Assembly: GCA_017412585.1 (NCBI GenBank) | Contig: JAFPXK010000040.1 | Location: 1 to 35,844 of the forward strand | Length of the DNA: 35,844 nucleotides | DNA from: Oscillospiraceae bacterium | GTDB taxonomy: Bacteria; Bacillota; Clostridia; Oscillospirales; Oscillospiraceae | Direction of reading: 5' to 3' | Shown here: positions 14,353 to 17,327 of the stretch, in pieces | Numbering within the stretch: position 1 is the stretch's first letter | How the letters are laid out: every line of letters begins with the position of its first letter | Position numbers and translations under genes: made by a program | Notes under the pieces: generated by a model | Seen by the model: only the letters and a program-made list of their open reading frames with translations | The model's database searches: none | What the model was told of the DNA's origin: nothing

Positions 14353-16632
14353 ATGATTCAGTTGATCGTCAAGCGTGACGGCCGCGTGGTGCCCTATGAC
14401 CGTGAGAAGATTGCCCTTGCCGTGCTGACTGCCATGAAGGCCGCCGCTGAGGGTACGGTGGCGGACGCCGCCCGTGTGGCCGAGTCGGTGGAGCAGGCGC
14501 TGGAGAGCCGCTGCGGCGCCGAGCCGCCTCAGATCGAGCTGATTCAGGACATGGTGGAGCAGGAGCTGATGCAGCGGGAGTTCCACTCCGCCGCCAAGGC
14601 CTATATCCTCTATCGCGCCAAGCGCACCCGTGCCCGTGAGTCCAACACCACCTTGATGAAGACCATCGACGAGATCGCCAGCAAGGACGCCCGCCTCTCC
14701 GACCTCAAGCGCGACAACGCCAACATCGACGGCAACACCGCCATGGGCGCCATGCTGCAGATCGGCTCCGCCGGCGCCAAGGCCTACAACGAGGCCTACC
14801 TTCTGCGGCCCGAGCACGCCAAGGCCCACCGGGAGGGCGACATCCACATCCACGATTTCGACTTCTACGCCCTCACCACCACCTGCACCCAGATCGACAT
14901 CATCCGCCTGTTCAAGGACGGCTTCTCCACCGGCCACGGCTTCCTGCGTGAGCCCCAGTCCATCATGAGCTACGCCGCCCTGGCCGCCATCGCCATCCAG
15001 TCCAACCAGAACGACCAGCACGGCGGCCAGTCCATCCCCAACTTCGACTACGGCATGGCCATCGGCGTGGGCAAGACCTTCCGCAAGCAGTACGTGAAAA
15101 AGCTCACCGACATTGTGGAGGACGCCCTGGACGCCGAGGATTTGGCCGATAAGGTAAAGGACATCGTGGCTGCCGCCGTGGCCGACAAGGGCGAAAACGG
15201 CCTGGAGCCCCCTGCCGGCTTTGACGACGCCGTGGCCGCCCGCCTGGCTGCCCATCTGGATATGGATTCCGCCCAGGCCGCCCATCTGGTGGCCCGTGCC
15301 CGCCGCCGGGCCGAGGCCCAGACCCAGCGGGAGACCTACCAGGCCATGGAGGGCTTCGTCCACAATCTGAACACCATGCACTCCCGCGCCGGCGCCCAGA
15401 CGCCTTTTTCCTCCATCAACTACGGCACCGACACCACCCCCGAGGGCCGCATGGTCATCCGCAATATCCTCATGGCCCTGGATGCGGGCCTGGGCCACGG
15501 CGAGACCTGCATCTTCCCCATCCACATCTTCAAGGTCAAGGAGGGGGTCAACTATAACGAGGGCGACCCCAACTACGACCTGTTCCGCCTGAGCTGCCAG
15601 GTGTCCGCCAAGCGGCTGTTCCCCAACTACGTGTTCCTGGACAGCCCCTATAACCTGCAATACTACAAGCCCGGCCATCCCGAGACCGAGGTAGCCACCA
15701 TGGGCTGCCGCACCCGTGTCATCGGCAACGTCTATGACCCCTCCCAGCAGATTTCCTACTCCCGGGGCAACCTGTCCTTCACCTCCATCAACCTGCCCCG
15801 CATCGCCATCGAGAGCCACGGCGACGAGGCGGTGTTCTACCGCAAGCTGGACGAGATGCTGGAGCTGGTGGCCCAGCAGCTGATGGACCGCTTCGAGATT
15901 CAGGCCAAGAAGCGGGTGTACAACTATCCCTTCCTCATGGGCCAGGGCGTGTGGCTGGACAGCGACAAGCTGGGCCCCTACGATGAGGTCCGTGAGGTGC
16001 TCAAGCACGGCACCCTGTCCATCGGCTTCATCGGCCTTGCCGAGACCCTGACAGCCCTCTACGGCAAAAACCACGCCCAGGACCCCGCCATCCAGGAGAA
16101 GGGCCTGGCCATCATCAGCCACATGCGCCAATTCTGCGACGACCGCTCCCAGCAGGTGAAGATGAACTACACCCTGCTGGCCACCCCCGCCGAGGGCCTG
16201 TCCGGCCGCTTCACCCGGGTGGATCGCCGCCGCTACGGCAAGATCCCCGGCGTCACCGACCGGGAGTATTACACCAATTCCTTCCACGTCCCCGTGTGGT
16301 ATCCCATCGGCGCCTTCGATAAGATCCGCATCGAGGCCCCCTACCACGCCCTGTGCAACGCCGGCCACATCAGCTACGTGGAGCTGGACGGCGACACCGC
16401 CAAGAACGTGGAGGCCTTTGAGAGCGTGGTGCGCTGCATGCACGACGCCGGCATCGGCTACGGCTCCATCAACCACCCCGTGGACCGGGATCCCATCTGC
16501 GGCTACGTGGGCGTCATCGGCGACGTGTGCCCCCGCTGCGGCCGCCGGGAAGGGGAGGCCGTCTCCCACGAGCGGATGGAGGAGCTGCTGAAAAAGTTCC
16601 CCCAGATCAAGAGCTTCATCGGAATCGAATAA
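14353..16632 (+). CDS. nrdD: Anaerobic ribonucleoside-triphosphate reductase, catalytic part lacking the glycyl-radical domain
   Basis: Class III ribonucleotide reductase, which makes deoxyribonucleotides without oxygen. This 759-residue product has an N-terminal ATP-cone (residues 1-90, VKRDGRVVPYDREKI) for allosteric control and the ten-stranded barrel core. Candidate active-site cysteines are C178 (LTTTCTQIDI) and C452 (ATMGCRTRV). Near the C-terminus there is a Cys-rich segment with three cysteines, C716, C726 and C729 (ICGYVGVIGDVCPRCGR), where the family usually has a four-Cys zinc ribbon. The protein then ends at a TAA with 28 residues of other sequence, and the essential RxxGYL glycyl-radical segment is missing; it is encoded by the next gene. 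AAGGAGAGG precedes the ATG at 14353; the in-frame ATA/TTG codons upstream lie in the operator and are unlikely starts. Confidence 0.93.
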   Translation: MIQLIVKRDGRVVPYDREKIALAVLTAMKAAAEGTVADAARVAESVEQALESRCGAEPPQIELIQDMVEQELMQREFHSAAKAYILYRAKRTRARESNTTLMKTIDEIASKDARLSDLKRDNANIDGNTAMGAMLQIGSAGAKAYNEAYLLRPEHAKAHREGDIHIHDFDFYALTTTCTQIDIIRLFKDGFSTGHGFLREPQSIMSYAALAAIAIQSNQNDQHGGQSIPNFDYGMAIGVGKTFRKQYVKKLTDIVEDALDAEDLADKVKDIVAAAVADKGENGLEPPAGFDDAVAARLAAHLDMDSAQAAHLVARARRRAEAQTQRETYQAMEGFVHNLNTMHSRAGAQTPFSSINYGTDTTPEGRMVIRNILMALDAGLGHGETCIFPIHIFKVKEGVNYNEGDPNYDLFRLSCQVSAKRLFPNYVFLDSPYNLQYYKPGHPETEVATMGCRTRVIGNVYDPSQQISYSRGNLSFTSINLPRIAIESHGDEAVFYRKLDEMLELVAQQLMDRFEIQAKKRVYNYPFLMGQGVWLDSDKLGPYDEVREVLKHGTLSIGFIGLAETLTALYGKNHAQDPAIQEKGLAIISHMRQFCDDRSQQVKMNYTLLATPAEGLSGRFTRVDRRRYGKIPGVTDREYYTNSFHVPVWYPIGAFDKIRIEAPYHALCNAGHISYVELDGDTAKNVEAFESVVRCMHDAGIGYGSINHPVDRDPICGYVGVIGDVCPRCGRREGEAVSHERMEELLKKFPQIKSFIGIE

Positions 16633-16656
16633 CATAAAATAAGGAGGAAAACCACC

Positions 16657-16815
16657 ATGACAGTGGCAACGAAAGAGAGCAAAATGGGCAAGGGCGTGGG
16701 CTTCGAGCGCATCCGCCGCATCACCGGCTACCTGGTGGGCACCATGGATAAGTGGAACGACGCCAAGAAGGCCGAGGAGCGTGACCGTGTCAAGCACGGC
16801 CTCAATCAGAAATGA
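16657..16815 (+). CDS. Detached glycyl-radical domain of NrdD (52 residues)
   Basis: This small gene encodes what is normally the C-terminal end of NrdD. Residues 16-30 read FERIRRITGYLVGTM, and G24 (codon 16726-16728) aligns with the glycine that carries the radical. The following DKWNDAKKAEERDRVKH is also typical of NrdD C-termini. The first 15 residues (MTVATKESKMGKGVG) look like a new leader. It lies 24 bp after the nrdD stop with a textbook AAGGAGG 9 nt before the ATG, and its stop overlaps nrdG by 4 bp. It is in the same frame as nrdD with a single TAA between, so readthrough is a formal alternative. I infer a free radical subunit that docks on NrdD, comparable in idea to the spare domain YfiD/GrcA of pyruvate formate-lyase. 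Confidence 0.88.
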   Translation: MTVATKESKMGKGVGFERIRRITGYLVGTMDKWNDAKKAEERDRVKHGLNQK

Positions 16816-17327
16816 TGATCCGCATGGCCGGCGTGGCCGGCGACTCCATCGTGGACGGCCCCGGCATCCGCACCGCCTACTTCTGTCAGGGCTGCCCCCA
16901 CCATTGCGAGGGCTGCCACAATCCCGAAACCTGGGATTTTGCCGGCGGCACCCCTGTGGACACATCGGAGCTGGCGGACATCGCCCGCCGCAACCCCCTG
17001 TGCCGGGGCGTCACCTTCTCCGGCGGCGAGCCCTTCGCCCAGCCGGAGGGCTTCGCGGAGCTGGCCGACCTTCTGAAACAGGACGGCTACGAGATCGCCA
17101 GCTATACCGGCTATACCTTCGAGCATCTCCGGGACAGCGGCACCCCCGCCCAAAAGGAACTGCTGCGCCGCCTGGACGTGCTGATCGACGGCCCCTTCGT
17201 GCTGGCGCAGCGCAGCCTGGACCTGGTGTTCCGTGGCAGCGCCAACCAGCGCATCATCGACGTGCCCCGCAGCCTGGCCGCCGGGGAGATCGTCCCCGCC
17301 CCGCCCCGCTGGCAGGGCGAATACTAA
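16812..17327 (+). CDS. nrdG: Anaerobic ribonucleotide reductase activating protein (radical SAM)
   Basis: Radical SAM enzyme that installs the glycyl radical on the reductase. The 171-residue protein has the cluster motif CPHHCEGC (CX3CX2C) within FCQGCPHHCEGCHNPETW, the SAM-binding GGEPF (TFSGGEPFAQ) and IASYTGYTFE; length is normal for NrdG. Translation starts at an ATGATG, the first ATG overlapping the TGA of the glycyl-radical gene, so activase and radical domain are made in coupled fashion. This fits its job of acting on that domain directly. Last gene of the operon, followed by a hairpin terminator. Confidence 0.96.
   Translation: MMIRMAGVAGDSIVDGPGIRTAYFCQGCPHHCEGCHNPETWDFAGGTPVDTSELADIARRNPLCRGVTFSGGEPFAQPEGFAELADLLKQDGYEIASYTGYTFEHLRDSGTPAQKELLRRLDVLIDGPFVLAQRSLDLVFRGSANQRIIDVPRSLAAGEIVPAPPRWQGEY

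Follow-up and report, generated by a model that had tools for sequence, protein, structure and literature searches.

A predicted class III ribonucleotide reductase with its glycyl-radical loop encoded by a separate small gene in an Oscillospiraceae bacterium and its relatives

Results

The end of NrdD that carries the predicted radical glycine is encoded by its own gene

The window, by which we mean the whole 35,844-nucleotide stretch of Oscillospiraceae DNA that was analysed (contig JAFPXK010000040.1 of assembly GCA_017412585.1), carries on its forward strand a run of genes related to class III ribonucleotide reductase (RNR). The first, nrdD (14353..16632, with its ATG at 14353 and its TAA at 16632), encodes a catalytic chain of 759 residues that ends in FIGIE and has no glycyl-radical loop. 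Residues 5-92 match the ATP-cone (PF03477), and the match to PF13597, at 610 bits, spans only model positions 1-531 of 562. Beyond the Cys-rich segment the chain runs on into a C-terminal extension, EGEAV...FIGIE (16549..16629, forward strand). After a gap of 24 nt, a second gene (16657..16815), preceded by an AAGGAGG ribosome binding site (16641..16647) 9 nt 5' of its ATG, encodes a stand-alone protein of 52 residues that covers the missing end of PF13597 (model positions 533-562) and whose Gly24 (codon 16726-16728) is the predicted radical glycine. The start of nrdG (16812..17327), which encodes a radical-SAM activase of 171 residues matching TIGR02491 above the cut-off, overlaps the stop of this small gene. 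The initial annotation had likewise described an nrdD ending in FIGIE-TAA without the radical-loop motif and, 24 bp downstream, a 52-residue gene with AAGGAGG and ATG that carries the NrdD tail, and the profile matches agree with it on both counts.

Two hallmarks of a class III enzyme, the NRDD catalytic body with its active-site cysteines and an NrdG encoded nearby, are found at the locus; the NrdD class is also marked by a same-chain C-terminal loop that bears the radical glycine, and here this loop is a separate gene. Cys178, Cys452, Cys716, Cys726 and Cys729 of the large chain are invariant in 29 aligned rows, the window's included. In Pfam the small protein matches NRDD alone (E up to 0.01), and it does not fall into the pyruvate formate-lyase (PFL)-type glycine-radical family. 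In Prevotella copri NrdD (8p23) the counterpart of its Gly24 in the alignment is the glycine of RITGYLVGT, at chain position 715. The accessible part of PMC11226230 names Gly711 as the radical residue of that enzyme, and the shift of 4 fits the alignment, in which residue 1 of the window protein meets chain position 5.

The C-terminal extension of the large chain is likely, judging from its distribution, to be a docking tail. A related tail follows the Cys-rich segment in all 80 split loci that were fetched (the best 80 of 554 relatives, described below), and it is absent from the listed fused NrdDs, in which the Cys-rich segment leads almost directly into FERIRRITGYL. When the two window chains were read as one by AlphaFold (29 rows), the model was poor, too weak to judge docking, with a mean pLDDT of 58.5 and residues 748-820 below 50. 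Insertion of a mobile element between the two genes was considered and dropped, as they lie only 24 nt apart.

The split arrangement is conserved among relatives

In the window the small gene is in frame with nrdD and a single TAA stands between them, so a nonsense change was a reasonable concern. When 21 small proteins were aligned and the alignment was used to scan a genome collection, 554 relatives emerged, and the best 80 were examined. All of these 80 loci, which come from other genomes, keep the order truncated nrdD, small gene, nrdG, and in each the 3' end of a truncated nrdD with a related tail (e.g. REGE.I..ERVEEL.K.YPEMPAFQGIE) lies upstream of the small gene; by a length rule, 74 of the 80 have a full-length truncated nrdD reading frame. 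The aligned nrdG start lies no more than 20 nt from the end of the small gene in 79 of the 80. In 70 of these loci, a start codon close to the aligned beginning of the small gene has a strong ribosome site in front of it, compared with 630 of 8,000 random start codons (7.9%) in a matched control, which we prefer to a more lenient one that gave 3.9% of random 17-mers. The split, the leader MTVATKESK and the ribosome site, whose conservation the initial annotation had proposed to look for, are conserved in relatives.

Among the same best 80 of 554, nrdD and the small gene are in register in 43 loci and out of register in 37, the gap between them ranges from 8 to 235 nt, and some gaps hold several stops; in the sister genomes G015 and G028, too, the small gene is in a different frame from nrdD. 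Joining of both parts into a single protein, by stop read-through or by frameshifting, would draw some support from the in-frame share, which is above one third. A 12-nt spacer is common to 14 of the 43 in-frame loci, however, so shared descent may account for part of that excess, and the out-of-frame loci, the varied gaps with their stops, the small genes' own ribosome sites and the location of the two genes on different contigs in the unlinked arrangement described below make such a fusion product very improbable.

Between the window and three close loci (L081-L083) the differences in the small gene number 1-4 and are all synonymous, with 0 nonsynonymous, so that the 52-residue protein is identical; the nrdD frame of L083 is broken in its assembly, and this locus was left out of the full-length sets. 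Over a 32-codon core, excised by residue pattern from 81 sequences, mean pS is 0.583 and mean pN 0.016; selecting loci by protein similarity, as was done here, lowers pN, and this, together with the pattern-based excision, makes the comparison weak evidence for selection.

Many related anaerobes have the split form. Titles of the best 80 loci of 554 include Oscillospiraceae, Lachnospiraceae, Ruminococcaceae, Christensenella, Ruthenibacterium, Negativibacillus and Faecousia; a single record bears the title Burkholderiaceae, perhaps through a binning error. When split forms were sought with a model of the small protein, a class-wide sample yielded 11 among 392 genomes, confirmed by fetched DNA or by an NrdD profile search. 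In the window's own genus, where the initial annotation had pointed to an uninterrupted copy in close relatives as the result that would count against it, the gene was seen in 3 of 32 genomes, some of them incomplete, and all three copies are split. A protein search returned 7,726 short proteins similar to the small protein, a set that spans other lengths (candidates of 29-91 residues) and may include longer relatives and contig-end fragments. Among the 120 of these that were listed, four are named, three as 'ribonucleoside-triphosphate reductase' (P0068, P0079, P0095) and one as 'hypothetical protein' (P0093). We conclude that the split is no mutation but an old feature that has been conserved.

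Phylogeny and genomes in which the split enzyme is the only RNR found

A careful tree was built from 49 catalytic chains cut after the Cys-rich segment, 49 of the 74 rows of a quick tree being used; near-duplicates and two distant paralogues were dropped. The window falls in a clade of 13 split forms (support 100/100). A second split clade (f5, f88 and f97) holds 7 rows (100/100) and a third (f3) 4 rows (100/95), and the split form of G490 stands apart. G150, whose NrdD stops before the loop and whose loop protein is unlinked, is sister to fused NrdD (100/100). In this reconstruction, at least three changes of state (NrdD without loop plus unlinked loop protein) are forced by supported branches; they would most simply be separate losses, in a count that treats loss and regain alike.

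The window's genome has a second nrdD, of which the first 289 residues are present at a contig end (L040, G000:C3:1-3233). This fragment matches a full-length paralogue in G028 at 98% identity. The paralogue has a glycine of its own and shares only about 28% identity with the split enzyme. The split enzyme here therefore need not be the only RNR. A class I/II RNR model found no match in the window's own genome. The initial annotation had taken a second full-length nrdD as a possible sign that the split copy is decayed; a second gene does exist, but as a distant paralogue it gives no such sign.

To cover other genomes, 43 (14 + 29) were searched with an NrdD model and with the class I/II model. 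Seventeen of the 43 have a single NrdD that is loop-less, encode the loop in a separate gene and gave no class I/II match; the small gene is linked in 13 (G353, G368, G490, G409, G868, G841, G812, G829, G821, G1024, G952, G967 and G966) and the loop protein unlinked in four (G500, G520, G383 and G150). The C-terminal ends of NrdD were inspected in all 17, whose estimated completeness is 93-100%; many genomes are split over many contigs, and in any single genome an RNR may lie outside both models or in a missing piece. Two of the 17, G952 and G966, have at the end of the large chain a worn loop remnant with a Gly-Tyr pair. G407 and G210 were left out, their NrdD pieces being short or broken.

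These results dispose of the view that a recent stop codon or frameshift disrupted an nrdD made redundant by the second copy. The single in-frame TAA and the second nrdD would suit such a broken gene, but the order is kept in 80 of 80 loci with 37 out of frame (best 80 of 554), close relatives differ in the small gene at silent sites only, and this arrangement is the only RNR found in 13 genomes. We regard nonsense mutation or decay as refuted by the out-of-frame relatives, the silent-only changes and the sole-RNR genomes, and the chance that it applies as negligible; the initial annotation had also argued against a simple nonsense mutation. Its view that a separate small subunit bears the radical glycine is strongly supported by the separate loop gene, the conserved order and the genomes in which the split enzyme is the sole RNR.

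Radical loops in other arrangements

Relatives also encode an additional protein of about 90-110 residues, with an N-terminal domain followed by the radical loop, together with a full-length NrdD. It lies between nrdD and nrdG in G253, G354, G433, G550, G419 and G442, on another contig than the full-length NrdD in G290, G456, G510, G444, G240 and G514, and about 372 kb from it in G479. Next to an intact NrdD, this protein looks like a spare part. Examples of the family include L168 (G290:C2), L165 (G419:C16) and L161 (G253:C10), and relatives P0121-P0240. With one of these proteins as the query, 4,961 proteins were retrieved; where a listed match has a name, it is 'hypothetical protein' or 'anaerobic ribonucleoside-triphosphate reductase', and its source is Oscillospiraceae or Ruminococcus. 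Longer relatives match NRDD, one of them also two other families under the cut-off; in the three 90-110-residue proteins tested in Pfam, no domain beyond the loop reached its cut-off. The AlphaFold model of P0121 (89 residues; mean pLDDT 67.4) has a weakly predicted strand-helix-strand-strand N-terminal domain. In G520, G500, G383, G371 and G150, NrdD itself ends just before the loop and the 90-110-residue protein is on another contig.

Some genomes hold more loops than catalytic chains. G397 has three stand-alone loops, and G868, G841, G829 and G1024 have two each, with one truncated NrdD apiece; the second match in each of G841 and G829 scores below the family cut-off.

In G271, G1030, G855, G1017, G952 and G966 the large chain ends in …IGYHGD…EE.DR… and keeps the Gly-Tyr pair. 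This end is apparently, from its residues, a worn remnant of a lost radical loop, and the large chains of these six genomes may have a glycine of their own. Chains with this ending are found at L185, L212, L218, L219, L382 and L384.

Stand-alone loops in viral contigs

Two scans of viral contigs gave 229 and 306 relatives, and the best 80 of each were taken, for 159 loci (L221-L379) with some contigs in both. These loci contain 153 loop reading frames, of which 137 stand alone: their fetched flanks, up to 4 kb long, contain no NrdD body. From these loop-bearing viral records, 49 of 30-258 kb, picked for length, were searched whole. In 45 of them nothing but a stand-alone loop matches NrdD, with 3 of the 45 matches below the family cut-off and none of the 49 records rated at least 90% complete; some of these contigs measure about 240-258 kb. 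The other records comprise three with a truncated NrdD and a loop and one with a fused NrdD. Ten neighbour proteins from eight viral loci were scanned, and an endolysin or a tail protein was found in three loci. In an isolate, Eggerthella phage EL753P1 (L380; OP172808.1, 3741-7200), NrdD ends without the loop, and the downstream loop region is interrupted in that record.

Discussion

With regard to what the locus encodes, its gene content and conservation make it very probable that this is a class III RNR in two chains, a catalytic chain of 759 residues and a separate radical subunit of 52 residues. The small chain would dock into the catalytic barrel where the loop of a fused enzyme sits, completing the enzyme, and the new C-terminal tail of the large chain would help to hold it there. 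In class III enzymes, NrdG generates a glycyl radical that passes to a nearby cysteine (from the accessible portion of PMC4390871); here, Gly24 of the small chain would acquire its radical through NrdG, and the small chain would then hand the radical on to Cys452 in the large one. Oxygen cleaves the chain at a glycyl radical (PMC3019208 and PMC2795772, in the parts open to us). In the split enzyme such a cut would destroy the 52-residue part only, and if fresh copies replaced the cut one, the costly catalytic chain would survive. Whether the small chain is in fact replaced after oxygen damage we judge to be evenly balanced.

Alternatively, the enzyme may be a fixed one, with a small chain that is permanent, made one-to-one with the large chain and never exchanged, such that the split has no repair role. 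This reading shares the separate radical subunit with the explanation that we favor and differs on replacement. In its favor, the genes and nrdG form a tight operon at 79 of 80 loci (best 80 of 554); the usual ratio of one small gene per large gene fits it equally well, and split class II NrdJa/NrdJb, as described in the available text of PMC9669993, is a case of an RNR gene split without a known repair role. It accounts less readily for the surplus stand-alone loops in five genomes, for those that accompany an intact NrdD and for those on viral contigs that have no NrdD body. A fixed subunit is thus possible, and we hold it to be somewhat improbable.

Exchange of the small chain after damage, which the initial annotation had proposed by analogy with YfiD, is plausible and draws indirect support from these same surplus loops, loops beside intact NrdD and viral loops without the NrdD body. 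In its broadest form, the class III RNR of gut anaerobes would run on exchangeable glycyl-radical cartridges, stand-alone radical domains being made by the host to take the place of those cut by oxygen and the built-in glycine having been abandoned in several lineages, and phages would bring cartridges of their own to keep or take over the host's supply of DNA precursors. Taken as a whole, this scenario could prove right or wrong with similar probability.

Our findings may be set beside several known systems. Compared with NrdD of class III RNR (PF13597; P. copri 8p23), the ATP-cone, NRDD body, active-site cysteines, Cys-rich segment and adjacent NrdG are alike, and the RITGYLVGT loop aligns with the loop of the window's small chain; the differences are that the loop and the part following it form a separate protein in the window and that the catalytic chain gains a conserved new tail. 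YfiD/GrcA and Y06I of phage T4 are, like the window's protein, short stand-alone glycyl-radical proteins, and they complement a PFL that has lost its own glycine, Y06I being phage-encoded (PMC8683613, seen in excerpt). In contrast to YfiD/GrcA, the window protein matches the NRDD family, and it would be obligatory instead of spare, because the main chain has no loop. Coexistence with a full-length partner, as in the YfiD type, is not seen in the window, where the partner lacks the loop, and is seen for the relatives of about 90-110 residues.

Division of RNR genes also has precedents. Split class II NrdJa/NrdJb has its catalytic gene in two, as here, but differs in RNR class and in radical chemistry (PMC9669993; see also PMC4520616). 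Phages such as phiAS4 and 949 likewise carry nrdD in more than one piece; the consulted portion of PMC3653736 presents these as fragmentation or intron insertion in single phages and describes no stand-alone radical-loop gene. The passages available from PMC9669993 and PMC11226230 treat the radical glycine as belonging to the NrdD chain. Spare parts had been shown for PFL only, and were considered a possibility for other glycyl-radical enzymes, according to the 2021 text of PMC8683613 as far as it was accessible. We found no report of an NrdD whose radical loop has a gene to itself in the full-text literature, partially viewed and with few subscription journals covered.

The split loci are a candidate spare-part system for an enzyme of DNA-precursor synthesis, in which the catalytic chain is expected to be inactive unless the separate part is present. 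Such a system makes the spare-part question directly testable and would add a subunit to a textbook enzyme. Thousands of short proteins, most of them nameless in searches, would acquire a role, and the system suggests a route by which phages may influence the nucleotide supply of their hosts.

A further kind of NrdD paralogue, with a C-terminal extension, occurs in the same genus (L024, L025, L026, L035, L036 and L042). This extension may resemble a redoxin-like domain.
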